A stretch of 37,804 bases of DNA. Origin: Synergistaceae bacterium. GTDB lineage: Bacteria > Synergistota > Synergistia > Synergistales > Synergistaceae. The position numbers and the translations under genes were made by a program. This document shows, piece by piece, positions 2,352 through 27,623 of this stretch (positions within the stretch are counted from its first letter, which is position 1; every line of letters begins with the position of its first letter). Under the pieces are notes generated by a model, which did no database searches, had not been told where the DNA came from, and worked only from the letters and a program-made list of their open reading frames with translations. The stretch spans positions 1 to 37,804 of the forward strand of contig JAISYN010000044.1 of assembly GCA_031269915.1 (NCBI GenBank). Reading direction: 5' to 3'.

Positions 2352-3518
2352 TCAAAAAACGCAGATGGTAAAAGTATTGCTGTGGGCGCGGTTTATCCTC
2401 CTGCCCTCATCATTGTAAACAGGGCATATCTCCCCGCCGGAATAGGCCATCAGGTAAGAAATTTCCCGATCCTTCATCCCGGAGACGACCATCTCCATTT
2501 CGGCGGATTGATCGTACATCAGAGCAAAATAGCGGCCCACACAGGAAAAAATCAGCGCCGTACGATATTGGGCTTCATCGAGAGCATCCTCCAGAGTATT
2601 GGAGGACGTCGCAACTATCTCCTCGGGAGAGAACATACCCACGGCGAGAGTAGAGCCGACAGGGACCTTTCTGGAGCACACGGCGTAACCTTCCGGCGTC
2701 ATGGCGAACATGGAGGCTATTACCGGCTCGGAGGCGCCGTTGTAATCAGCGATGAGAGGAAACGAGTTGATGCCGTCTATGCCGCCGTTTTCGTTTTTGG
2801 CAAGCCCCAACGACATGAGAAATTCTATCATCGATTTGCCGTTGATCGATTGAATCAGGTTGCCGTTCGATGCGGTTACCGTGCCCTCTTCCGGGAATAT
2901 TTTGTCGTCGGAAATGGTTCCCGTATAGAAACGCGGCGCCGCGCCTCCATAGAACAGAAGCAACGCGACTCGGTCGCGCCAGGCTTCGCCGTTAAATATC
3001 ACGTACGACTCATGGTAATCAGCGTTGTGATCCACTGGCAGAGCGCCGAAAATTGGCAGGCCGCCAGTGATCTCGTCCATGCTCTCGACAAAGAAATCAC
3101 TGCCGGCGTTAAAAAGAAGCGGAAAGAAGCTGAATATCAATGACGGGCGATCGTTCCGGCTCCGCGCCGCTTCGTCATAAAAACGCCTCAACACGGAAGT
3201 ATCCTTTCCCAGCACCGGCTCGGAGAATCCTGTAACGAATTCCGTCTCATCGCTCGTGAGCACCATGACGCACAGCATCGTTTCGCCGCATTGCCCCGCG
3301 CTTGCGCAGGCAATGGTGGTGACCCCGAGTACATCGAATGGAAGCGCGTCGCATATGGCCCTCACGACGCCTGTCTTGATGAAATCGGCAAAACACGACA
3401 TAATCCCCACCGTGTTCTTCAGAAGTCTGCCTTTGTAATCAAGCCGCTCAACGAGTTCTTTTACCGCAAGTTCCGTGTCGTCTATCTCGGCTGTACACGC
3501 TGAAAAAGATTTAATCAT
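2352..3518 (-). CDS. FIST N/C domain sensory protein
   Basis: ORF 388 aa; FIST-like pattern (DVLGVTTIACASAGQCGE, GGLPIFGALPVDHN, AVGMFSPEEIVATSS, SCVGRYFAL...E). Confidence 0.8.
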   Translation of the reverse strand: MIKSFSACTAEIDDTELAVKELVERLDYKGRLLKNTVGIMSCFADFIKTGVVRAICDALPFDVLGVTTIACASAGQCGETMLCVMVLTSDETEFVTGFSEPVLGKDTSVLRRFYDEAARSRNDRPSLIFSFFPLLFNAGSDFFVESMDEITGGLPIFGALPVDHNADYHESYVIFNGEAWRDRVALLLFYGGAAPRFYTGTISDDKIFPEEGTVTASNGNLIQSINGKSMIEFLMSLGLAKNENGGIDGINSFPLIADYNGASEPVIASMFAMTPEGYAVCSRKVPVGSTLAVGMFSPEEIVATSSNTLEDALDEAQYRTALIFSCVGRYFALMYDQSAEMEMVVSGMKDREISYLMAYSGGEICPVYNDEGRRINRAHSNTFTICVF

Positions 3519-3530
3519 GACTTACCTCCA

Positions 3531-4958
3531 TTATGAAAGTGCCGCCGCCCGACTGTACATATCCATGTATTCCTGCGCCGCCGCCGCCCAGCCGTTGTCG
3601 CAGCGCATCGCGCGCAAAACCATACAAGCCCAGCCGTCCCCGCCGCCATAATACAGGTTCCTGGCGCGCAGACAGGCCGAAAGCATATCCCTGGAATCAT
3701 ACGCGGCAAATGTAAAACCGTTGCCGCGGCCATCCGAATTTTCACGGACGGTGTCGCGAAGCCCTCCTGTTTCACGAACGACAGGCACGGTTCCATAGCG
3801 GAGCGCGGCCATCTGCCCAAAACCGCAGGGTTCAGTTCTGCTCGGCATCAGAAAAATATCGCTTCCGGCATATATAATGCGCGCCAGCGCTTCCGAATCG
3901 CCAATGTGGGCGCCGGCCTCCCCGCGCCGGCGGATGGCGAGTTCCGTAAAAAATTTTTCATATTTCCCGTCGCCCGAACCTACGATCGCAAGCTGGACCC
4001 CGAGGTCGATCATCTCGTCCGCGACCGGCATTATGAGGTCGAGGCCCTTGTCCTCAGTAAAATCCGAGACCATGCCAATGACCGGCGAGGGGCCTTCCTC
4101 AAGGCCAAATTCCTCCCGCAGGGCCTTTTTACAGGCGGATTTCCCCTCAGATATGTTATTTACGCAGTAATTGGCAGGGATATACGGGTCTGTCAAGGGG
4201 TTATAATCGCTGATGTCGATTCCGCCGAGTATCCCATGGATTTTGTGTTGTTTTTTTTGAAGAAAGTCGTCCAGACCGCAACCGTATGCCGGGTCCAGCA
4301 GCTCTCCCGCGTAGGACGGCGAAAGCGTGCTGACGAGATCGCTCGCCTCTATCGCGCCTTTCGTGAGATTCACAACGCCGCCGTATTCCAGCACATGCAT
4401 GTCCTCCCTGCCAATGCCGAAAGTCCCTTCGAGTATATTGGTGGGCGCCGTATATTGCCGCTTGATGTCGTGGATGGTAAATATCGCCTTCAATCGGGCA
4501 AACTTCCCGATATTCCGGTAAAACAGGTTTAGATATATCGGAACGAGCGCCGTTTGCCAGCCGTTGCAATGAAGAATATCCGGACCGAGCCTAGTATGGA
4601 AAAGCATTTCGAGAATGGCGCGGGAAAAAAAAGCGAATCGCTCGCCGTCGTCATAAAACCCGTAAAGCCCAAGCCGCTTGAAGTAGTATTCATTGTCAAG
4701 AAAATACCACGTCATGTCCCGCCAATTCAATTCGAACAAACCGCAGTATTGATTGCGCCAGCCCACAGGAACGGTAAAACTGGTGATATATTTCAGTTTT
4801 CCGCGCCATTCGGCGCTTAAATCCCCATATAACGGCAAAACCGCGCTGACCGCCGCGCCGCGCCGGTGCAACGCGGCCGGCAGCCCTCCTGTCATAACGC
4901 CGTCGCTGTCCGAAACAAAGAAAGGATGCGCCTCACTTGCCGCAAACAGGATTTGCAT
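3531..4958 (-). CDS. Glycogen/starch synthase-like glycosyltransferase (GT5 fold), divergent active site
   Basis: ORF 475 aa; MQILFAASEAHPFF, GLYGFYDDGERFAFFSRA, HCNGWQTALVPIYL, FLMPSRTEPCGFGQMAALRYGTVPVVRETGGLRDTV. Homology clear; see finding on missing residues. Confidence 0.85.
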   Translation of the reverse strand: MQILFAASEAHPFFVSDSDGVMTGGLPAALHRRGAAVSAVLPLYGDLSAEWRGKLKYITSFTVPVGWRNQYCGLFELNWRDMTWYFLDNEYYFKRLGLYGFYDDGERFAFFSRAILEMLFHTRLGPDILHCNGWQTALVPIYLNLFYRNIGKFARLKAIFTIHDIKRQYTAPTNILEGTFGIGREDMHVLEYGGVVNLTKGAIEASDLVSTLSPSYAGELLDPAYGCGLDDFLQKKQHKIHGILGGIDISDYNPLTDPYIPANYCVNNISEGKSACKKALREEFGLEEGPSPVIGMVSDFTEDKGLDLIMPVADEMIDLGVQLAIVGSGDGKYEKFFTELAIRRRGEAGAHIGDSEALARIIYAGSDIFLMPSRTEPCGFGQMAALRYGTVPVVRETGGLRDTVRENSDGRGNGFTFAAYDSRDMLSACLRARNLYYGGGDGWACMVLRAMRCDNGWAAAAQEYMDMYSRAAALS

Positions 4959-5019: not shown

Positions 5020-6084
5020 TCATTCCGAACATGGGAATCTGGCGGACGCGGCCTCAAACACTTCTTCGAGGGCTGGATCAAAGTGGCTGCCGAAAGAGTC
5101 ATGAATAATCCGCGCGGCCTGTTCTCTGGGAAACGCTTTCTTATACGGACGTTCGGATATCAGCGCGTCGTACACATCGGCAATAGCCATCAAACGTCCC
5201 TGCAAGGGGATATCCTCTCCGGAAAGGCTGTAAGGATAGCCGGAACCGTCCCATTTTTCATGATGCGTGCCCGCCATGATTTTCGCGTGCGTTAAAAACG
5301 CGCTTTCTCTGGTGTTTTGTTGTATCCTGTCGATTATCTTTTCGCCGAACGCGGCGTGTTTCTTCATTTCATCAAATTCTTCCCTGGTAAGTTTGTCGGG
5401 TTTCAGAAGAATGTTGTCATGGATGGATATCTTACCGACATCATGGAGCTGGGACGACTGAAGGAAGAGTTCGATGTCCCATGACCGCAGTTCGTCGAGG
5501 TAGACGCCGATCCTGAACATTTCCTCCGTCAGGATGCGCAGGGTCTGCGCGGTACGGGTGACATGCATGCCCGTAACGTCATCCCGGCGCTCCACCAGTT
5601 CGCTCACCGTCGAAAGGATAGCTCCCTGCAGTTCGACGATCTCGCTCATTTTCGCCTCCACCAGCTTTTCGAGGTTGGCGTTGATATATTTCAATTCATT
5701 CTTCTGCGATTCGATGAGCATGTGTATTTTGACCCGCTTCAGCAGCAACTGCGGGGTGAAGGGTTTGATGATATAATCCACGGCGCCGAGGGAAAGGCCC
5801 TCCAATTCGCTCACCGCGTCCGCTTTTGACGTGAGGAATATGACGGGTATGTCGTTCGTCCTTCCGTCGGCCTTCAGCTCTATTATCGCTTCGTACCCCC
5901 CGATTTCCGGCATGAGTACGTCGAGCAGAATCAGATCGGGAAGGATATTCTTGAGGATCAGGTGCATTTTAGCCACGCTTGGAACGGTGAAAACATCAAA
6001 CACACTTATTAAGGCATTCCTGGCCATTTTCAGGTTGACGGGGTTGTCATCCACGATAAGCACTTTTTTCCTGTCGTCAGACAT
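5020..6084 (-). CDS. Response regulator with HD-GYP output domain (putative c-di-GMP phosphodiesterase)
   Basis: Receiver VLIVDDNPVNLKMA...LILLDVLMPEIGGYE...PVIFLTSK...IIKPF; QLHDVGKISI, THHEKWDGSGYP, RLMAIADVYDALISERPYKKAF. Confidence 0.93.
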   Translation of the reverse strand: MSDDRKKVLIVDDNPVNLKMARNALISVFDVFTVPSVAKMHLILKNILPDLILLDVLMPEIGGYEAIIELKADGRTNDIPVIFLTSKADAVSELEGLSLGAVDYIIKPFTPQLLLKRVKIHMLIESQKNELKYINANLEKLVEAKMSEIVELQGAILSTVSELVERRDDVTGMHVTRTAQTLRILTEEMFRIGVYLDELRSWDIELFLQSSQLHDVGKISIHDNILLKPDKLTREEFDEMKKHAAFGEKIIDRIQQNTRESAFLTHAKIMAGTHHEKWDGSGYPYSLSGEDIPLQGRLMAIADVYDALISERPYKKAFPREQAARIIHDSFGSHFDPALEEVFEAASARFPCSE

Positions 6085-6577: not shown

Positions 6578-7540
6578 ATGGCCTTGTTTGGTGGGAAAAG
6601 CGGGAAAACCCGCGGCGGCCTTTTTATTTTCGGAGGCATGATGCAGTATGTGGTGCTTTCCAGACAGGGAGGAAAGACTTATAGGCTGGAGGAGTGCATT
6701 GACGCGCCGTACGACGTCGGTGTTTCGGGTGGTGATATATTAGCGAATCAGGATGTCATAGAGCAAAACCTGAAAAATCTTAAAAAACAAGTGGGACGCC
6801 ACTGGGCTGACAAGGTATACGCGGGCATCCAATCCAAGGACGTGCTGTTGCGCACCGTAGAATTGCCGATAATGGAGCTTGCCGACATTAAAGAGTCGTT
6901 TCGCTTTGAATTCGACAAGTTTTTCCCCATTCCGGTCGAAGATGCCGTCTATGACGTGGCTCTTGTGGACAGACCGGGCGGGGACGACGCGGTGTCGGAG
7001 GCTACCGTCCAGTGTATCGCGGCGGCAGTGCGCGTGACAGCCGTCGAAAACCTTATGCTCGCGGCTGATAAGGTCGGGCTGAAGTTAAGCGGCATCGAAC
7101 CTTCTCCCGTGGCGCTGCTGAGATGTCTGATGGGTCCGGCTTATCAGACCGGTTTTAACGTCTATGCTCTGGCAGGATTGGTCAGCAGTGTTATAATAGC
7201 TTCATACAGGGATAACGGCATCGTTTACAGGAACACGTCGCACGCGTTTGCCGCGGACGACCCCTCTGGGAGGAATGTGGTCAATTTCACGCGGGATCTT
7301 CAGTCCACGATAAAATTCGCCACAACCCAGATGCGTGGATTTGTGGCCGATAAAGTGTATATAGGCGGTTACGGGCTGTCAAATTCTCATTCTCTGAAAA
7401 GCAGCGTCGAGGATATGGTCAATTCGCCGGTAGAAACCGTCAATCCTTGGGAATTATGGACCATAGGAAATCAACCAAAGCAAACCTACGGCTGGGAAGT
7501 CACGCTGGGGTTAGCTCTGAGACCTGCGGAGGTGAAATAG
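6578..7540 (+). CDS. pilM: PilM-like type IV pilus assembly protein
   Basis: First gene of pilM-N-O-P-Q order; VELPIMELADIKESFRFEFDKFFPIPVEDAVYDV matches the PilM/GspL family pattern. Confidence 0.75.
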   Translation: MALFGGKSGKTRGGLFIFGGMMQYVVLSRQGGKTYRLEECIDAPYDVGVSGGDILANQDVIEQNLKNLKKQVGRHWADKVYAGIQSKDVLLRTVELPIMELADIKESFRFEFDKFFPIPVEDAVYDVALVDRPGGDDAVSEATVQCIAAAVRVTAVENLMLAADKVGLKLSGIEPSPVALLRCLMGPAYQTGFNVYALAGLVSSVIIASYRDNGIVYRNTSHAFAADDPSGRNVVNFTRDLQSTIKFATTQMRGFVADKVYIGGYGLSNSHSLKSSVEDMVNSPVETVNPWELWTIGNQPKQTYGWEVTLGLALRPAEVK

Positions 7541-7543
7541 CGT

Positions 7544-8164
7544 ATGCAGGTTTTATTCGATCTCAGACCTCCTCATATTGTACAGCTCCAATCCCAGAGA
7601 GTGGATATTACGAGGGTTTTGAGCGTTTTATTTTTTGTGATTTTTATATTGATATCGGTTTATAACATCGGCAACATTGCCTACAACTTTCTGGAGGTTC
7701 GGAAGAGTCTTGCCGACGCGACGGGGGAACAGCGATCCGTACAGGATGCAGGCGCGGCGTTCACTATGGAAATAAACAGGCTGCGAGCCATTAAAAATAA
7801 GATCACGGTTTACCTCGAATTCACCAGGGAAGAACTGCCCGCCGTCGAATTCATGAAGGCGTTGGAGGATGCGCTGCCGCCGCAAGGGCTTAAAATTTCG
7901 CAACTGGAAGTACGGCCAAATAACGTGCTGATGATCGGATCCGCCCTCTCCGACAATGAAATAACGATGTTCGCCGCAAATCTGGAGAGACTCAACTATA
8001 TAGTGACGAGGGTCGACTCTCCCGTGACGACGAAATCAACGCTGGGGTCAAAGCAGATATCCGATTTCAGGCTGGCGTGCACGATCAAAAAGGTTCTCGA
8101 TATAGCGAAGAACGATCCGAATCAGCAGGTCTTCATTCCGATTGAAGGGGGTAACGGACAGTGA
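7544..8164 (+). CDS. pilN: PilN-like inner-membrane assembly protein
   Basis: Short cytoplasmic N-terminus, one TM helix, coiled coil, ferredoxin-like periplasmic segment; position after pilM. Confidence 0.72.
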   Translation: MQVLFDLRPPHIVQLQSQRVDITRVLSVLFFVIFILISVYNIGNIAYNFLEVRKSLADATGEQRSVQDAGAAFTMEINRLRAIKNKITVYLEFTREELPAVEFMKALEDALPPQGLKISQLEVRPNNVLMIGSALSDNEITMFAANLERLNYIVTRVDSPVTTKSTLGSKQISDFRLACTIKKVLDIAKNDPNQQVFIPIEGGNGQ

Positions 8165-8676
8165 CGGCGGAAAAACAGCACAAGATGTACGGGGTACTGA
8201 TGGTCGCCGTGGTGATTCTTCTGCTCGCCGCTCAGTACATATTGCAACGCACGCTGCAGCAGGCAAGCGAAGAACTAATTTCGATTAAGACATCCCTCTC
8301 GTCCGAACAGAGTATGCTCAGTTCGCAGCGTTCGCTGTCGGAAAGATTAAAATCCTTCGAAGTTCTGGCGTCCGGCTATGGCGGTTCAGAACGCCTGTTC
8401 CCCGAGAACCCGCGCGAACTCTTCGCGGCAGTTGGCGGCGTACTGCAGGACTATTCCGTCGAATTCACCCAGAGCAGCTCGAATTTGACGGTAAAACCGG
8501 GTGAAAATTTCACGCTCGCCATCTCTTTCAACGGTCAGTATTACAACGTCATGAAAGCCCTCGCGGCGATCAGGGAGAACAACTACATCATGCGGATAAA
8601 TGAACTGCGGCTCAACGCCGAAAGCAGCGGGGCCGTCAGGGGATCGATGAACATCGTGAGTACGGCGCGGAGCTAG
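8161..8676 (+). CDS. pilO: PilO-like inner-membrane assembly protein
   Basis: GTG start overlapping the pilN stop (GTGA); N-terminal TM helix, coiled coil, then PilO-like domain; synteny. Confidence 0.7.
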   Translation: MTAEKQHKMYGVLMVAVVILLLAAQYILQRTLQQASEELISIKTSLSSEQSMLSSQRSLSERLKSFEVLASGYGGSERLFPENPRELFAAVGGVLQDYSVEFTQSSSNLTVKPGENFTLAISFNGQYYNVMKALAAIRENNYIMRINELRLNAESSGAVRGSMNIVSTARS

Positions 8677-8689
8677 AGGAGGTCTTTCC

Positions 8690-9313
8690 ATGGCTGAGAA
8701 AAGACCGACAGGGGCTTTATCCAAAACGAAACAGAAGATGGGAGGAGAACAGAACACCAAAAAACTCCTCCGCGTCGCTGTTATGCTTTTATGCTGCGCC
8801 GGAAGCGGTTATTTCTTCTGGACGACGGCGCAGTTACTTCAGACCAACGAAATGAATCTTGCCAACGCAGCGATACCCAAACCTCCCGATCCCGCACTCG
8901 AAACGGAAAAGAACGAAGTAGCCGCGGTGGAAGACGGACTGACAAATCTCTCGAAATCTTCCTCCCAGGTTATGCGAATGGCGCTGCTGGCGGAGGTGCA
9001 GCGGAACATTCCTCTTGATTTACCCGTGAGTCTGACTCCCGCGGTCGTTCAGACACCGACAGGGGAAGAAGTGATAGCAGTGGAACCGGATCCTCCCCTT
9101 CTGATGGTCTCGGCCGTGATGATTACGGACGGCGGGCAGGTATCGGTCATCGACGACGGAAACGCGAGGGTGATCAGAAACGGAGCGAAGCTTTTCGACG
9201 ATCAATCGGGAACGGTTCAAGAAATAAAGAGGGAAGGCGTGATTTTCAGATGGAAAGGGAAACGGTATTTAGTCAGAGTCGGAGACTCCGTGCCAGAAAG
9301 GTTAAAACGATGA
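8690..9313 (+). CDS. PilP/GspC-like pilus assembly protein
   Basis: SD GGAGG, N-terminal TM anchor, Pro-rich linker, C-terminal beta-rich HR-like domain (VSAVMITDGGQVSVIDDGNARVIRNGAKLFDDQSGTVQEIKREGVIFRWKGKRYLVRVGD). Confidence 0.6.
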   Translation: MAEKRPTGALSKTKQKMGGEQNTKKLLRVAVMLLCCAGSGYFFWTTAQLLQTNEMNLANAAIPKPPDPALETEKNEVAAVEDGLTNLSKSSSQVMRMALLAEVQRNIPLDLPVSLTPAVVQTPTGEEVIAVEPDPPLLMVSAVMITDGGQVSVIDDGNARVIRNGAKLFDDQSGTVQEIKREGVIFRWKGKRYLVRVGDSVPERLKR

Positions 9314-11187
9314 CAAGGATGGCTAAATTCACGAGATTTTTCCCATTCGCGGCGCTTTTATTGTGCGGCGCTCTTTTCATTATATCTCCCATTAGAGTTG
9401 AAGCCGCCGCAAGAAGGGATATTCCCCCGGGGCTCTCGATGAAGGCTCCGGAAAACATAAAACCTGTGCTCGCCGCCATGAACGTTTCCCAAGGCGGCGA
9501 CAGCACATTGATTTTAAGACTGCGCGGATTTGATATACCCCTGCCGCGCGCGGCTTCGGCCCCCGGAGAGAGTAAACTGGTGCTTCACTTCGACGGTGCG
9601 AGGTTTCCGGATTCCACGGATTCAAGGGACTGGTGGAACGGTTATGACTGGGAGATCTTCAAAATAGATTCATCGGTCACCAATTCGTGGTGGAAACAAT
9701 ACGACCTTCCTCTCCTGTCCCGCGTCAACGCTGAACCGGTGGACGAGGACAGCCTCAGGCTCACTCTCGTAACCACAAAACCGCTGGCCATCGAACGGAT
9801 TGACGGAATCGCAGGCGCCGATGAAATAAGAGTGATATTGAATGTATACGAACCCGAAAAAGCTCCGCCTCCGGAACCCAAGCCGGTTGTGTACGCCAAG
9901 GGAGACCCTATGGGCATTAAGGCGCCCGTGACTATAGAACTGGTCGACGCCAGCGTAAAGGCTGTCTTCAGAATGCTCGCCGATATGCAAAACCTGAACC
10001 TCATACTGGACCCTTCAGTAGTCGACCAGACGGTGACTTTCTCTTTCAAGGGAGTTCCCTATAACGAGGCTTTCGCTTATCTGCTCCGCATGTGCGAACT
10101 CTCGTACTCGGTCAGCGGCGGCATGTTGGTGGTCAGCAAGCCTGAGAGTCTGGGGCGCACGATGGGGACGGAATTTGTGCGGGCGTATAACCTCTCCTAT
10201 GCGGTCGGAGAGAGCGGGGGTATCGACGATAATCTGACGGCCGCTCTCACCGGGCTTATTTCTCTTTCCAAACCGCCGGTAATAGACTCCCGCACCCGTC
10301 AGATTTATGTGACCGCGACAGAAGAGCAGCACAAAGAGATTGCGGCGATTCTTCGAAAACTGGACCATCCCGGACGCCAGATCATGCTGGAGGCCCGCAT
10401 TTTCGAGGTTTCAGACAATGGCACGCAGGAACTGGAAGCTCTCGTTACGGCGATTTACAACCACTGGGTATCGAGTTTCACCAGTTCGGGGTTGAACGCC
10501 GGATATAATTACGTCAACAGCACCATTGAAGACGCCAATGACGATTGGTCTCTGCCTGTAGGCGGATCAGTGGGAGGCTCGCCGGTCTTGGAACAGTTCC
10601 CATTTGAAGGCGCTAAACTGCTCAGCACGGGATTGCGCGCGCTCGAAACCAAAGGCAAGGGCAAAAATCTGGCGAATCCGTCTTTGATAACCATCGACGG
10701 GAAAACCGCCACAGTCTCGATGACGCAGAACGTAAAATACGCGTCCGGCGTGGACTCGAACGGAAACGTCACATTCAGCGACGTGCAGAGCGGCCCGAGG
10801 CTCTCCTTTCTGCCGGTGATAGGACGGAACGGCGTCGTTACGATAAATGTACAGATAGAAACCGGCGAAATCCTGGGCTGGAGACAAGCGGGCATGGGGG
10901 CGCAAGCTCCCGAAACTTCATCGCGCAGAGTGGAGACGATAGTCAGGGTGCGCAACGGAGAACCGTTCGTGGTCGGCGGGCTTTATCAAGACAACAAGAT
11001 AAGTTCGCGCAACAGGATTCCGGTTCTGGGCTATATACCTCTGCTGGGCGATCTGTTCACGACGAGGTCCGACACACACCGCAAAACGGAGGTTGCCATG
11101 ATTGTGATTCCCTATATCCTGGACGTCCCGGAGAGCGATATAGAGACCTTCGATCTTCAAAATAACCCTCTCTCATTGAAGAAGTAA
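9310..11187 (+). CDS. pilQ: PilQ/GspD-type secretin
   Basis: ATGA overlap with the upstream stop gives ATG at 9310, followed by a signal peptide; secretin/TonB short N-terminal domain (IELVDASVKAVFRMLADMQNLNLILDPSV), secretin core (GRQIMLEARIFEVSDNG, VRVRNGEPFVVGGLYQDNKISSRNRIPVLGYIPLLGDLF). Confidence 0.92.
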   Translation: MTRMAKFTRFFPFAALLLCGALFIISPIRVEAAARRDIPPGLSMKAPENIKPVLAAMNVSQGGDSTLILRLRGFDIPLPRAASAPGESKLVLHFDGARFPDSTDSRDWWNGYDWEIFKIDSSVTNSWWKQYDLPLLSRVNAEPVDEDSLRLTLVTTKPLAIERIDGIAGADEIRVILNVYEPEKAPPPEPKPVVYAKGDPMGIKAPVTIELVDASVKAVFRMLADMQNLNLILDPSVVDQTVTFSFKGVPYNEAFAYLLRMCELSYSVSGGMLVVSKPESLGRTMGTEFVRAYNLSYAVGESGGIDDNLTAALTGLISLSKPPVIDSRTRQIYVTATEEQHKEIAAILRKLDHPGRQIMLEARIFEVSDNGTQELEALVTAIYNHWVSSFTSSGLNAGYNYVNSTIEDANDDWSLPVGGSVGGSPVLEQFPFEGAKLLSTGLRALETKGKGKNLANPSLITIDGKTATVSMTQNVKYASGVDSNGNVTFSDVQSGPRLSFLPVIGRNGVVTINVQIETGEILGWRQAGMGAQAPETSSRRVETIVRVRNGEPFVVGGLYQDNKISSRNRIPVLGYIPLLGDLFTTRSDTHRKTEVAMIVIPYILDVPESDIETFDLQNNPLSLKK

Positions 11188-17010: not shown

Positions 17011-17904
17011 TCATTCGCAGTTTTCGACAACCCACTTGAGCGTCTGGAAATTCGAACGCATGACTTCGTTTGCGAACACGACGGGCACTTCGTAAGAATG
17101 GTTCTGCCTGACGCACTCCATGGCGTCACGCAGATTCCGCCCCGTGGTACAGCAACTGAGACGCCACTCGTGCGTGTCGTTTATCCTGCCTTTCCATCGA
17201 TACATGCTTTCCACCTCAGTTATGTTCGTTCCGGCGACAAGGCGCCTGTCCAGGAGAATGGAGGCTATGCGCCGGGATTCCGGGCGGTCTTTGCAAAAGA
17301 CGCTGAGTTCGTGTACAGTGGACATCTTAAGCATGAGTTCCCCAATCTCGCGCGCCCTCGTTTCCCACGCTTCCAGACTGCCTATATTGCACAGAACTAT
17401 GTCGGACATTGCTTGTTTTTTGGGCGAACCCATCAGAAAACGCTCGCGAATAGCGATTTCTTCTTCTCGCCAGCCTCTCGACGCGCTTCTTTCCATCCTC
17501 AGATCGTCTGTGGAAGTCACGCATACCACACAGTCCACCAGGTCGAACCATCCCGTTTCGTAAAGCAGCGGGCACTCGACTACTATCCATCCGCCGATGT
17601 TGCGCACATCTCTTGAGACCTCCACCATAGCGGGCGGATGAATGAGATTCGCGCTGAAACGATATTCTTCGAAATCTTTGTAGACTTTTTCGGCGATTTT
17701 TTTAAAAACGGGGACTCCGTTCTCGTACACGCCCGCCCCCCAACGGCGTTCGGCCGCTTCCCTTATTTCAGGACACGACCAGTATTTTTTCGCAAGAGTA
17801 TCGAGTTCAAAGACGTTTGCCCCCATTTCCCCCCATATCCTGGTCAAAGCGCTCTTACCAGCGCCAATTTCGCCTGTTACCGCCACGGAAAACATCATAA
17901 TCAC
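17011..17904 (-). CDS. coaE: Dephospho-CoA kinase fused to a CutA-like domain (CoaE::CutA1)
   Basis: N-terminal CoaE: VAVTGEIGAGKSALTRIWGEMGANVFELDTLAKKYW, NLIHPPAMVEV, VECPLLYETGWFDLVDCVVCV, SDIVLCNIGSLEAWE. C-terminal CutA: MSTVHELSVFCKDRPESRRIASILLDRRLVAGTNITEVESMYRWKGRI...CCTTGRNLRDAMECVRQNHSYEVPVVFANEV. Confidence 0.9.
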   Translation of the reverse strand: MIMMFSVAVTGEIGAGKSALTRIWGEMGANVFELDTLAKKYWSCPEIREAAERRWGAGVYENGVPVFKKIAEKVYKDFEEYRFSANLIHPPAMVEVSRDVRNIGGWIVVECPLLYETGWFDLVDCVVCVTSTDDLRMERSASRGWREEEIAIRERFLMGSPKKQAMSDIVLCNIGSLEAWETRAREIGELMLKMSTVHELSVFCKDRPESRRIASILLDRRLVAGTNITEVESMYRWKGRINDTHEWRLSCCTTGRNLRDAMECVRQNHSYEVPVVFANEVMRSNFQTLKWVVENCE

Positions 17905-20592: not shown

Positions 20593-20835
20593 ATGCGCCA
20601 GGTCAACATACACGAGGCAAAAACACATCTTTCCGCTCTGATAGATAGCGCGGTGAAGGGAACGCCATTTATTATCGCCAAATCCGGTAAACCGATGGTG
20701 ACTGTTTTATCTTGCGCGGACGCGCAAAAACCGAAAAAGCGAATCGGCTTTTTAAAGGGCAAAATAACAGTCCCGGATGATTTTGACCGGATGGGCGGAT
20801 CGGAAATTGCCTTGTCTTTTCAGGACATGGAATGA
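20593..20835 (+). CDS. Phd/YefM family antitoxin
   Basis: MRQVNIHEAKTHLSALIDSAVKGTPFIIAKSGKPMVTVL; SD GGGGGA-like; overlaps the toxin gene (ATGA). Confidence 0.9.
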   Translation: MRQVNIHEAKTHLSALIDSAVKGTPFIIAKSGKPMVTVLSCADAQKPKKRIGFLKGKITVPDDFDRMGGSEIALSFQDME

Positions 20836-21218
20836 AGCTGCTAATCGACACGCATCTGCTATTATGGGCGGCAGCCGGTGAATTGCCAGCGGAGGCGGAA
20901 TGGTATATCGCCGACGAATGCAACCTGCTTTTGTTCAGTTCGGCGAGCATATGGGAGGTTGTCATCAAATGTGAACTCAAGCGATCAGATTTCAGCGCGG
21001 ACCCGTATGCTCTCTACAATGGCCTTCTTGAAAACGGCTATGAAGAGCTTCACGTTACCGCAAAACATTCTTTGTCCGTTCATTCTCTTCCGCCGATCCA
21101 CAGAGACCCGTTCGACAGGATATTGGTGGCACAAGCCATCTCGGAGGGAATTTCTCTGCTTACGTCGGATCATATTGCCGCGCAATACCCAGGCCCTGTT
21201 ATTTACGTAAAAAACTAG
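20832..21218 (+). CDS. vapC: PIN-domain toxin (VapC family)
   Basis: MKLLIDTHLLLWAAAGE, SSASIWEVVIKCE, HRDPFDRILVAQAISEGISLLTSD. Confidence 0.92.
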   Translation: MKLLIDTHLLLWAAAGELPAEAEWYIADECNLLLFSSASIWEVVIKCELKRSDFSADPYALYNGLLENGYEELHVTAKHSLSVHSLPPIHRDPFDRILVAQAISEGISLLTSDHIAAQYPGPVIYVKN

Positions 21219-23474: not shown

Positions 23475-24617
23475 GTGATGGGAAAAGCGTTGGTAGTAGG
23501 CTGTGGGTTAGTCGGCAAGACAATAGCGCTTGACTTGATGGACGAGTTTGACGTTACGGTAATGGATCCCAATGAGGAGGCGCTGGATTCGCTGAAAGAA
23601 GGCAAAATTACAAAGCTGAGGCAATCGGCGGTCGACGCCAATGCGCTTGCTGGCGCCGCAAAAGACGCGGACGTCGTTTGCGGCGTGATCCCAAGCCAGC
23701 TCGAAGGCGATGTCCAAAAACAGATAATTGAAATGGGCAAAAATTATGTCAGCCCCTCTGGCTTCCTGCACAGCAAAGGCCTTGACGAGCTGGCGAAAAA
23801 GCATAACTGTACCTGCGTATTTGACATGGGGATCGCTCCCGGCATGTCAAATTACCTCGTCGCAAAAGGCGGCGCGATGCTCGATGAACTGGATTTCGGC
23901 TGCATTTACGTCGGCGGTATCCCGGACAAACTCGATCCTCCCTTCAATTACAGGACGGTATTCTGTCTGGAAGACACTATGAACGAATATGTATTCCCCG
24001 CCAGGTATGTTGAAGGCAATAAAGTAAAAGAAGTGCCGGCGCTGAGCGGGCTTGAGGAAGTTGACATTCCGGGCCTTGGAAAGCTGGAAGCGTTTTTCAC
24101 GGACGGGCTCCGTTCTGCGGCGGACAACGTTAAAGGCAAGTTCGTAGCCGAAAAGACGATGCGCTGGCCTGGCTACGTCGATAAGATCAACACGCTGAAA
24201 GCCGCGGGGTGTTTTGGCAAAACGCCAGTCACTGTAAATGGCAAAGAAGTTGTCCCAATCGACGTCACGACAGAAGTGCTGCGCCCTCTGTGGAAACTGC
24301 GCCCTGAAAAAGGAGACAGGGACCTTACGGTCATGCGGGTCATTGCAAAGGGGCCGAAGGGGGATAAGTATGTCACGTACATGTGGGATTTGGTAGATAA
24401 ATTCGACGAAAAGCAGATGCTGCACTCAATGGCCAGGACAACGGGATATCCTTGCTCCGCGACCGCCAAGGCCATCGCGAAAGGCATTATTACGGAAAAG
24501 GGGTTCCTTGCGCCCGAAGCGCTGGTTCGCAATGATAAATTCCATGAATACCTCATGTCCGAATTGGCAAAACGCAACGTCGTTTTCAAGACAAGCCAGC
24601 TCATACAGGAAAAATAA
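23475..24617 (+). CDS. Saccharopine dehydrogenase-like NAD(P)-dependent oxidoreductase
   Basis: KALVVGCGLVGKTIALDL (Rossmann), FDMGIAPGMSNYLVAKG, KTMRWPGYVDKINTLKAAG. SD AGGAGG; ATG at 23475 or 23478. Confidence 0.85.
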   Translation: MMGKALVVGCGLVGKTIALDLMDEFDVTVMDPNEEALDSLKEGKITKLRQSAVDANALAGAAKDADVVCGVIPSQLEGDVQKQIIEMGKNYVSPSGFLHSKGLDELAKKHNCTCVFDMGIAPGMSNYLVAKGGAMLDELDFGCIYVGGIPDKLDPPFNYRTVFCLEDTMNEYVFPARYVEGNKVKEVPALSGLEEVDIPGLGKLEAFFTDGLRSAADNVKGKFVAEKTMRWPGYVDKINTLKAAGCFGKTPVTVNGKEVVPIDVTTEVLRPLWKLRPEKGDRDLTVMRVIAKGPKGDKYVTYMWDLVDKFDEKQMLHSMARTTGYPCSATAKAIAKGIITEKGFLAPEALVRNDKFHEYLMSELAKRNVVFKTSQLIQEK

Positions 24618-24661
24618 CAGGAGCTGTGGAAAAACAAGTTTTACGTGAAGGATAAATTTCG

Positions 24662-24706
24662 AAAGCTCCTGAGCGCGAATCTGAGAAAATCTCAGGAGCT
24701 TTTTTC
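24662..24706 (+). terminator. Intrinsic terminator
   Basis: AAAGCTCCTGAG / CTCAGGAGCTTT 12-bp stem, 17-nt loop, followed by TTTT. Confidence 0.8.
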
Positions 24707-24866
24707 TTTCAGATTTTGGAGTTAACCCACAAAAAAGCAACAATCGTAACACATATCGAAACATATGCGGAAATGAGCAAGGAATATAGATATCGGTGAT
24801 TAAAACATGTTTTAGCGCGCAGACCCTGCTTATTTTTACTAACTTAAAAATGTGGAGGTGCGGTTT

Positions 24867-26288
24867 ATGATTGCTGAGATATTGGATTACATCGTTGGCA
24901 TTTTATGGGGGCCTACTCTCCTGATAGGCCTAGTTGGGACAGGACTTTATTTCACCATAATCACTGGCTTTTGGCAATTAAGGAATTTGAAACGCGCCTT
25001 CCTTTTTTGCTTGTCCCCGAAAAAAAAGAGCGACGGGAAACAATCGGAGACCACCGTATCTCCTTATCAGGCCGCGGCCGTCGCAATCGGCAGTTCTATC
25101 GGCTCAGGCAATATCGGGGGCGTTGCCGGCGCAATCGCCTTAGGCGGTCCCGGCGCTTTGTTTTGGATGTGGATCACCGCGCTAGTCGGTATGATGACAA
25201 AAATGGTGGAAGTAACGCTTGCCGTCTATTACAGAAAAAAGGAACCGGACGGGAAAAACACAGGCGGGCCTCTTTTTTATATTGAAAAAGGCATTGGGAA
25301 AAAATTCAAATACTGGAAGCCCATAGCGGTTCTGTTTGGCCTTGGACTGTGCATGCAATTAGTCCTGTCGCCGGAGAATTTTTCCGTCGGCGAATCGCTC
25401 CAGGAGCTTACAGGGGTTCGCGCGCTCTATGCCTCGATCGTTTTTGGGATATTGTGTTTCATTGTCGTTTGCGGAGGACTCAAGCGCGTGATTAACTTCG
25501 CGACGTTAATGATGCCGATCATGTCGCTCCTGTACATCATTTTCGGAGCTTATGTGATCCTTCTCAACGTCAGCGAACTGCCAGCGGCATTCGCTCTAAT
25601 CGTCAAGTCAGCTTTTCAGCCTACCGCCGCGGTAGGGGGATTTGCGGGCGCTTCGTTCATGCTAGCGGCCCGAAGCGGCATATCCAGGGGGCTCTTCAGC
25701 AACGAGGCCGGATGGGGCACGAGCCCGATGGTACACGCCACCGCCGATAACAAGCACCCGATCGAACAAGGCATGTGGGGCATAATGGAAGTATTCATCG
25801 ATACGATAGTCGTCTGCTCGATAACTGGGCTTGTCATTATAGTGACGGGCGAATGGTCGTCGGGCGCGGCTGGCGTAACGCTGACAATGAGGGCGTTTTC
25901 ACGCGGTTTGGGGAAGTTCGCGGCCATCTTTGTCGCGGTCAGCGTGTTCCTTTTCTGCTGGACTACGGTAACCGGATGGTTCAGTTATTTCCACTCTGTC
26001 TTTGAATTCGCGTTCGCAGACAATCCGCGCCTGAAAAAAGCGTCGATCGTTTTTTTAAAGTTCTCAGCCCCTGGTTTTGGATTGCTCATGACGTTCCTGA
26101 TCGATGTTTTTAATGTCGATACGGCATATGCGTGGCTGATAGTCGATATATCCTCGGCAATTCCGACCTACGTCAATTTGATTGTATTGATCTGCCTGAC
26201 GAAGGTATTCCTAAGGATTCTGAAGGACTACGAGGGGCCTAAAAAATTGTACGGATTGGCGGAATACGATAAAGTGAAAATGGATTAG
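24867..26288 (+). CDS. Sodium:alanine/glycine symporter (AGCS family)
   Basis: IGSSIGSGNIGGVAGAIALGGPGALFWMWITALVGMMTKMVEVTLAV; SRGLFSNEAGWGTSPMVHATA. Start moved to ATG 24867 after GGAGGTG. Confidence 0.94.
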   Translation: MIAEILDYIVGILWGPTLLIGLVGTGLYFTIITGFWQLRNLKRAFLFCLSPKKKSDGKQSETTVSPYQAAAVAIGSSIGSGNIGGVAGAIALGGPGALFWMWITALVGMMTKMVEVTLAVYYRKKEPDGKNTGGPLFYIEKGIGKKFKYWKPIAVLFGLGLCMQLVLSPENFSVGESLQELTGVRALYASIVFGILCFIVVCGGLKRVINFATLMMPIMSLLYIIFGAYVILLNVSELPAAFALIVKSAFQPTAAVGGFAGASFMLAARSGISRGLFSNEAGWGTSPMVHATADNKHPIEQGMWGIMEVFIDTIVVCSITGLVIIVTGEWSSGAAGVTLTMRAFSRGLGKFAAIFVAVSVFLFCWTTVTGWFSYFHSVFEFAFADNPRLKKASIVFLKFSAPGFGLLMTFLIDVFNVDTAYAWLIVDISSAIPTYVNLIVLICLTKVFLRILKDYEGPKKLYGLAEYDKVKMD

Positions 26289-26314
26289 CGGCATAAACGA
26301 AAAGAGCGCGTTAG

Positions 26315-26349
26315 CGGGCAGGAGTCTATGAACGTAAGACTCCTGCCCG
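26315..26349. repeat. Perfect 13-bp hairpin between symporter and second dehydrogenase
   Basis: CGGGCAGGAGTCT - ATGAACGTA - AGACTCCTGCCCG; no U tract follows. Confidence 0.7.
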
Positions 26350-26381
26350 TTCGGGCGTAATATGATGGGAGGAGATAAGTA

Positions 26382-27623
26382 ATGAAGACAGTTTTGCAGA
26401 TAGGCTATGGAATGCAGGGCAAATCTGTTCTGGCGGACTTGAGAAAAAACATGTCAATTTCTGAGATAATCGTAGTGGATGCAGCGGATTCCATAAAAGA
26501 CCTCAAAAAAAATAGTTTAGCGGATCCACGAATTACGCCAATACAGATGGATATTGTCGCGGATAAGGCGAGCCTCTCCGAGTTGATGCGGCGTTCAGAC
26601 GTCGTCATCGAATTAATGCCGGAAAATTTGACAAAGTATTTACTTCGGATGGCGGTCGAAAACGAAACGAATCTTGTCTCGACAATGTATTTTTACAATG
26701 GCGGGGAACAGGACGAGAAAAAGCGTTTGGCTGAGAAAGAAGAAATTACTTCTTTAGATGCTCAAGCGCGCGCCAAAGGAATTACAGTCATTAAAGAGAT
26801 GGGTATGGAACCTGGTTTAGATTTTATTTTGGCTTATAAAGCTGTGAACGAGCTGAACGAAGTCAGGGCTTTTCATTCTTATGGCGCCGGATTCCCAGAA
26901 CCGCAAGCGGCTGACAACGCGCTCCGTTACAAATTTACATGGTCGATTATTGGTTTGATACATTCATGTTATGCTCCTTGCGTAATTATTGAAAATGGCC
27001 GTCCGGTTACTATCCCTGCCGATTCACTATTTATTCCTTCAAATACTCATCTGTTAAAACTACCGGAATTTGAAGAACCTTTGGAGTGTTCTCCGTGCGG
27101 TGAAAGCGATACGATAGCCAAGCTCTTCGGTTTGGAAAAAGTCAATACAATGGGACGCTATATAACGAGATGGCCAGGGCACAACGCTTTCTGGAACGTT
27201 ATGGCAAAAACGGGTTTCCTTTCCACACAACCAATTAAAATAGGCAACATAGAAATCAGTCCTGATATATTCTGTATCGAACTTTTGTCGCAACAAGAAC
27301 AGTTTTATTATAAAAAAGACGAGAGGGACGTCGCGCTTCTCAGAGTAGATGTCCGGGGATATAAAAATGGAAAACCGCAAAAGGTAGTCATCCAGATTCT
27401 CGACTACAGGGATATTAACACTGGTTTTACCGCCATGCAGCGCACAGTAGGATTCACCGCATCCATAGGGGCTCAATTGATCCTTGATGGAACATTGAGC
27501 GCTAAGAAGGGGATCATAAGTCCTTCAGACGTACCTTTTGACAGGTTTATGGACGAACTTAAAAAACGTGGAATAGTATATACTATGAAACTTGAGGATT
27601 GGGATGGCAACGAACGCCCGTAG
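26382..27623 (+). CDS. Second saccharopine dehydrogenase-like oxidoreductase
   Basis: KTVLQIGYGMQGKSVLADL, VIKEMGMEPGLDFILAYKAVNE, GRYITRWPGHNAFWNVMAKTGFL; SD GGGAGGAGA. Confidence 0.84.
   Translation: MKTVLQIGYGMQGKSVLADLRKNMSISEIIVVDAADSIKDLKKNSLADPRITPIQMDIVADKASLSELMRRSDVVIELMPENLTKYLLRMAVENETNLVSTMYFYNGGEQDEKKRLAEKEEITSLDAQARAKGITVIKEMGMEPGLDFILAYKAVNELNEVRAFHSYGAGFPEPQAADNALRYKFTWSIIGLIHSCYAPCVIIENGRPVTIPADSLFIPSNTHLLKLPEFEEPLECSPCGESDTIAKLFGLEKVNTMGRYITRWPGHNAFWNVMAKTGFLSTQPIKIGNIEISPDIFCIELLSQQEQFYYKKDERDVALLRVDVRGYKNGKPQKVVIQILDYRDINTGFTAMQRTVGFTASIGAQLILDGTLSAKKGIISPSDVPFDRFMDELKKRGIVYTMKLEDWDGNERP

Follow-up and report, generated by a model that had tools for sequence, protein, structure and literature searches.

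The 475-residue open reading frame at 3531–4958 on the minus strand of the window (the whole stretch of DNA analyzed, 37,804 nucleotides from a Synergistaceae genome) encodes a candidate pseudoenzyme with the fold of bacterial glycogen synthase (GlgA, family GT5), as judged from reading-frame, profile, alignment, and structure-prediction evidence. Loss of glucose transfer is strongly inferred from the residues that it lacks, and the protein is very probably non-catalytic. On balance, it appears to act as an accessory, probably ligand-binding, part of a pathway running from a hybrid histidine kinase to an HD-GYP response regulator.

The reading frame is free of internal stops, and GT5 N-terminal and GT1 C-terminal domains extend across the full length of its product (Glyco_transf_5, PF08323, E = 9e-60; Glycos_transf_1, PF00534, also matched). 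The match to TIGR02095 gave 449.5 bits against a cut-off of 328.45, a whole-sequence score that is blind to the active site. The best NCBI GlgA equivalog model was NF001898 (502.9 against a cut-off of 603), and the canonical GlgA of the same genome likewise scored below all equivalog cut-offs. An AlphaFold2 model had a mean pLDDT of 92.9, with the former KxGGL loop among its lowest-confidence regions; its top PDB match by Foldseek was E. coli GlgA with ADP and glucose (2qzs) at a TM score of 0.90. The Pfam, TIGR02095, and Foldseek results thus bear out the sequence-only reading of this gene, in which the fold was called clearly GT5. The protein shares with bacterial GlgA (E. coli 2qzs, Agrobacterium 1rzu) its GT-B fold, length, Pfam and TIGR02095 matches, and EPCG motif, but differs in that its donor site is dismantled, it is encoded in a two-component rather than a glg operon, and it is the second GT5 of its genome. 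Annotation as glycogen synthase, to be expected from automated pipelines, is probably wrong.

For comparison of the donor pocket, an alignment of 171 rows was used, made up of the window protein, E. coli GlgA (2qzs), and 169 other GT5 proteins, with E. coli numbering throughout. Relative to E. coli GlgA, the window protein carries K15V, G17D, G18S, L19D, D21V, V22M, D137G, N162D, N246G, R300D, Y355D, and L381F; H161, K305, W138, E377, and the EPCG motif are unchanged. The former KxGGL donor loop (codons 15–24, at 4887–4916 on the minus strand) now reads VSDSDGVMTG, and the former diphosphate-binding strand and loop, SRxxxxKG (codons 296–304, at 4047–4073 on the minus strand), now reads MVSDFTEDK. 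The motif pairings proposed from the sequence alone were all recovered: KTGGL with VSDSD, HDW with NGW, SRLTxQKG (SRLTSQKG in the reference) with SDFTEDKG, whereby the Arg is lost and the Lys kept, and a retained SRxEPCG region. To these the alignment added D21V, N162D, N246G, Y355D, and L381F. The same register was seen in phmmer alignments of the window protein to solved GT5 enzymes. A shifted register returning a Lys and an Arg to the pocket, which would have counted against the sequence-only reading, was looked for and occurred in none of the alignments.

Because R300, K305, G17, G18, H161, N162, N246, and E377 are 100% conserved in 160 other GT5 proteins, the differences of the window protein at such positions are not attributable to chance. 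Lys15 is also absent from 62 of these 160 proteins (Oscillospirales and relatives) and so is not diagnostic alone. The direct ADP-glucose-binding residues listed for AgtGS, from Agrobacterium, are Lys15, Gly18, Asp138, His163, Asn246, Ile297, Arg299, Gly327, Tyr354, and Asn355 (PMC2576272, Table 1). Identity scoring was possible for nine of the ten, of which the window protein keeps three, against nine of nine in the canonical GlgA of its own genome; K15, G18, D137, N246, R300, and Y/F355 have become V, S, G, G, D, and D. For AtSSIV, where Lys39, Gly42, Asp45, Arg332, Lys337, Tyr390, and Leu416 are discussed, the diphosphate surroundings are said to be less flexible than any other part of the site, and the His-Asn motif is called strictly conserved and possibly catalytic (PMC6086201). 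That motif is His-Asp in the window protein, and the Glu of EPCG (Glu377) is present.

It could be argued that the gene encodes a normal ADP-glucose glycogen synthase of low activity that serves as a regulatory isozyme, given that the TIGR02095 score still lies above the cut-off (449.5 against 328) and that Lys15 is evidently dispensable, since sister Oscillospirales GlgAs lacking only this residue sit in glgBCDA operons as the sole GT5. With six of the nine scored contacts changed, R300D among them, the site's least flexible region affected (PMC6086201), and a canonical GlgA elsewhere in the genome, we regard this as very unlikely. The latter protein, whose possible presence the sequence-only reading had marked as worth checking, is encoded on another contig (G000:C312), where it adjoins a glycogen-phosphorylase-like gene; its 492 residues include KQGGLGDV, HDW, GRLVQQKG, and EPCG. 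This copy rules out that the genome is without a canonical GlgA. A GlgC-like gene in the same genome is a contig-end fragment (323 bits).

Full-length copies of the window protein were found in 8 of 188 genomes of the phylum at 53–100% identity, the other GT5 proteins of the phylum reaching at most 38% among the matches listed. Outside the phylum, members occur in a metagenome-assembled genome (MAG) named Accumulibacter (L049), an assignment that may be a binning error, in a Clostridiales Family XIII MAG (L090), and in a further genome of the same order (G524). The clade as treated here comprises the 11 known full-length members; a C-terminal GT5-like fragment at a contig end in G007, followed by a FIST gene and then a kinase, was kept apart. 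Member genomes include MAGs, with contamination values of up to 9%, and ten of the 11 contain a second GT5, the exception being G136 (86% complete). Mis-assembly or a single-genome oddity is ruled out by the ten additional members in other genomes. A search of plasmids returned no close carrier except one Subdoligranulum record at 56%.

In the 160 other GT5 proteins, 53 positions show conservation of 97% or more, and 39 of these are kept by 10 or all 11 members of the clade. Losses are enriched where ligand is bound or catalysis takes place (7 of 9 such positions, compared with 7 of 44 elsewhere; Fisher p = 6e-4, for a site set drawn up after the alignment had been seen). Without preselection of sites, the five largest 9-residue drops in conservation relative to a set of Oscillospirales GlgAs fell at 165–173, 16–24, 296–304, 373–381, and 351–359, all within or beside the active site (permutation p = 5e-5), and this at equal mean identity (0.605 for the signaling clade and 0.606 for the Oscillospirales set). 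An N-domain block at 61–115 is more conserved in the clade than in the Oscillospirales GlgAs (0.82 versus 0.74), as is the segment 177–185 (0.73 versus 0.34). Residues new and common to the clade are N162D (11 of 11), L/M198T (11 of 11), and V22M (10 of 11); at position 162, Asp in every member stands against Asn in all 160 other proteins. The His-Asn motif is His-Asp in nine members and Arg-Asp or Leu-Asp in the remaining two.

Judged from these alignments, erosion of the pocket is graded across the clade and has not settled on a new conserved pocket. The least-changed member, in G047, retains R300, K305, D137, N246, and E377, and the member in G189 (L090) has lost E377, H161, R300, and K305, Glu377 being present in the other ten, the window protein included. 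Position 300 is D, K, S, P, R, or deleted/A, and position 355 is D, K, S, F, P, or T. The member in G188 has V15, D17, G18, and V21, its alignment row being gapped over the first ~20 positions owing to the chosen start codon. Some residual activity is possible in certain members, given the residues kept in G047 and H161, K305, E377, and W138 in the window protein. With intermediate states surviving between a member that has R300, K305, and E377 and one lacking all three, the change from enzyme to regulator would be traceable and testable.

Values of dN/dS were 0.09–0.26 for the GT5-like gene, 0.10–0.22 for the response regulator, 0.24–0.29 for the FIST gene, and 0.08–0.20 for canonical GlgA (dS being saturated in distant pairs). 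By this measure, the GT5-like protein is under purifying selection similar to that on its neighbors and on canonical GlgA. Together with intact reading frames, these values rule out a pseudogene. The idea of a non-functional passenger decaying within a mobile signaling operon is already largely refuted and can be given hardly any weight; several close regulator–kinase pairs do without the gene, which is to that extent dispensable, and its pocket residues drift, but 11 reading frames are intact at dN/dS of 0.09–0.26, overall conservation equals that of working GlgAs, and one N-domain segment exceeds it.

Purifying selection, a strongly conserved fold and acceptor-side domain, and the retention in the window copy of Glu377, His161, Lys305, and Trp138 might also be expected of an active glycosyltransferase that has adopted a new donor (another nucleotide sugar, a sugar phosphate, or a lipid-linked donor) and whose product would be a new or modified glycan, controlled by the operon's signaling genes. 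This is unlikely, because no new consensus has replaced the old pocket (positions 300 and 355 vary); in addition, acidic or non-polar residues stand where diphosphate-facing ones were, the catalytic Glu is also lost in G189, and the operon is without a sugar-nucleotide gene.

The accessory signaling role that we favor draws on the genes around the GT5-like gene. The operon begins with an HD-GYP response regulator at 5020–6084 on the minus strand (Pfam Response_reg and HD_5), in which the receiver (REC) and HD-GYP domains have intact phospho-acceptor Asp, HD, and GYP motifs; 61 nt separate it from the GT5-like gene downstream. Separated by 12 nt from the GT5-like gene, the third gene encodes a FIST-domain protein (FIST N and FIST C by Pfam; 2352–3518, minus strand) and is found at this place only in the window, G045, and G007. 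It is followed by a hybrid histidine kinase at 1–2334 on the minus strand, truncated by the contig end, with intact H-box, ATPase, and REC motifs; its homologue in G045 (L034) has PAS, HisKA, HATPase, REC, and Hpt domains. An HD-GYP regulator lies directly upstream of the GT5-like gene, and in the same direction, in all 11 members, and a hybrid histidine kinase lies downstream in all ten with enough contig, FIST intervening in the window and G045. Intergenic gaps range from -46 to 114 nt, some starts being approximate. Every regulator checked contains the HD motif, and every kinase the H-box; a pattern match found the GYP motif in 10 of 11 regulators. Kinase sensor domains include dCache (G136 and G044) and PAS (G045).

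In gene order and intact signaling motifs the window operon resembles HD-GYP regulator/hybrid kinase pairs generally, but ordinary pairs of the same bacterial family have no GT5-like gene between them. Such related pairs are common in the family, some with regulators 82–83% identical to that of the window, so that the GT5-like gene is not essential to them. As pairs with and without the gene are intermixed on the regulator tree, it would be an optional third part that has been lost or exchanged several times. Separately, it was noted that genomes of this family carry several HD-GYP regulator/hybrid kinase pairs each, mostly without a GT5-like gene (L231, L232, L233, L234–L238, L240).

The claim of an altered donor-diphosphate pocket therefore stands. 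The sequence-only reading had offered a different donor, weak catalysis, or a regulatory role as its outcome, and the last is favored because all 11 relatives lie in a two-component/HD-GYP operon, the pocket is still eroding down to a member without Glu377, and a canonical GlgA is present elsewhere. From genomic context, it is quite likely that the GT5-like protein works with the kinase/HD-GYP pair, either acting on it or being controlled by it. Signal would pass from the hybrid histidine kinase to the HD-GYP regulator, which by its domain is a putative c-di-GMP phosphodiesterase. A glucan as the ligand is a guess that may well be mistaken, whereby the conserved N-terminal half would still bind alpha-glucan or maltodextrin; by a further guess, the pathway would read the carbohydrate reserve and set c-di-GMP. 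More speculative, and somewhat doubtful, is a glycogen synthase turned intracellular alpha-glucan/maltodextrin receptor that couples the reserve to the kinase and c-di-GMP phosphodiesterase, in a cassette spreading among gut bacteria of different phyla. Control of GlgX by c-di-GMP has been reported in Streptomyces (PMC9530166), and a connection leading from the glucan reserve to c-di-GMP would meet it from the opposite direction.

To place the clade, trees of 85 rows and of 38 rows with bootstraps were compared. The 11 members form one clade (support 100/99) nested in the Oscillospirales GlgAs, beside two Ruminococcaceae (OttesenSCG) proteins (support 99/94). These nearest relatives (Ruthenibacterium, Pygmaiobacter, and Ruminococcaceae OttesenSCG) reach 58% identity to the window protein and, like the signaling clade, have lost Lys15 and conserve the N-domain block; unlike the window protein, they retain G17, G18, N162, N246, R300, K305, and E377 and have glycogen-gene neighbors. 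In the two loci checked (L052 and L068), glgB, glgC, and glgD precede the gene, and the Oscillospirales GlgA is the sole GT5 in each of the five genomes tested. On tree evidence, the signaling clade originated from within the Oscillospirales GlgAs of glgBCDA operons, the simplest reading being that a glycogen-operon glgA was transferred into a signaling operon; the clade then apparently moved horizontally into Synergistaceae and other gut bacteria. Between G000 and G003, dS is about 0.5 for the operon and about 2.0, near saturation, for canonical GlgA, which hints at a later transfer of the operon itself.

The Oscillospirales GlgAs are of interest in themselves. In those of Ruthenibacterium, Anaerofilum, Pygmaiobacter, and others, Lys15 of KxGGL is replaced by A, M, V, or T (L052–L075, L083–L086, L127–L130, L132, L172, L173, L178–L200), which contradicts the description of this motif as strictly conserved throughout the glycogen and starch synthases (PMC2576272). 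Since such proteins are encoded in glgBCDA operons, the absence of Lys15 does not by itself prove inactivity.

No earlier description of such a GT5 pseudoenzyme was found in a limited full-text search that covered open-access papers. If the reading is correct, this would be a GT5 pseudoenzyme built into a bacterial signal-transduction pathway. The plant protein STARCH SYNTHASE 5, a non-canonical GT5 homologue that takes part in granule initiation, probably functions without ordinary catalysis; it has degenerated in a different way, and its partners are granule-initiation proteins rather than a two-component system.

Elsewhere in the window, a type IV pilus-like cluster (6578–11187, plus strand) encodes PilM-like and PilN-like proteins, two more small reading frames, and a secretin. 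A single reading frame at 17011–17904 on the minus strand fuses dephospho-CoA kinase (CoaE) and CutA1 domains, and a 128-residue PIN-domain reading frame of toxin-antitoxin type lies at 20832–21218 on the plus strand. At 23475–27623 on the plus strand, a sodium:alanine symporter is flanked by two different saccharopine-dehydrogenase-like reading frames.
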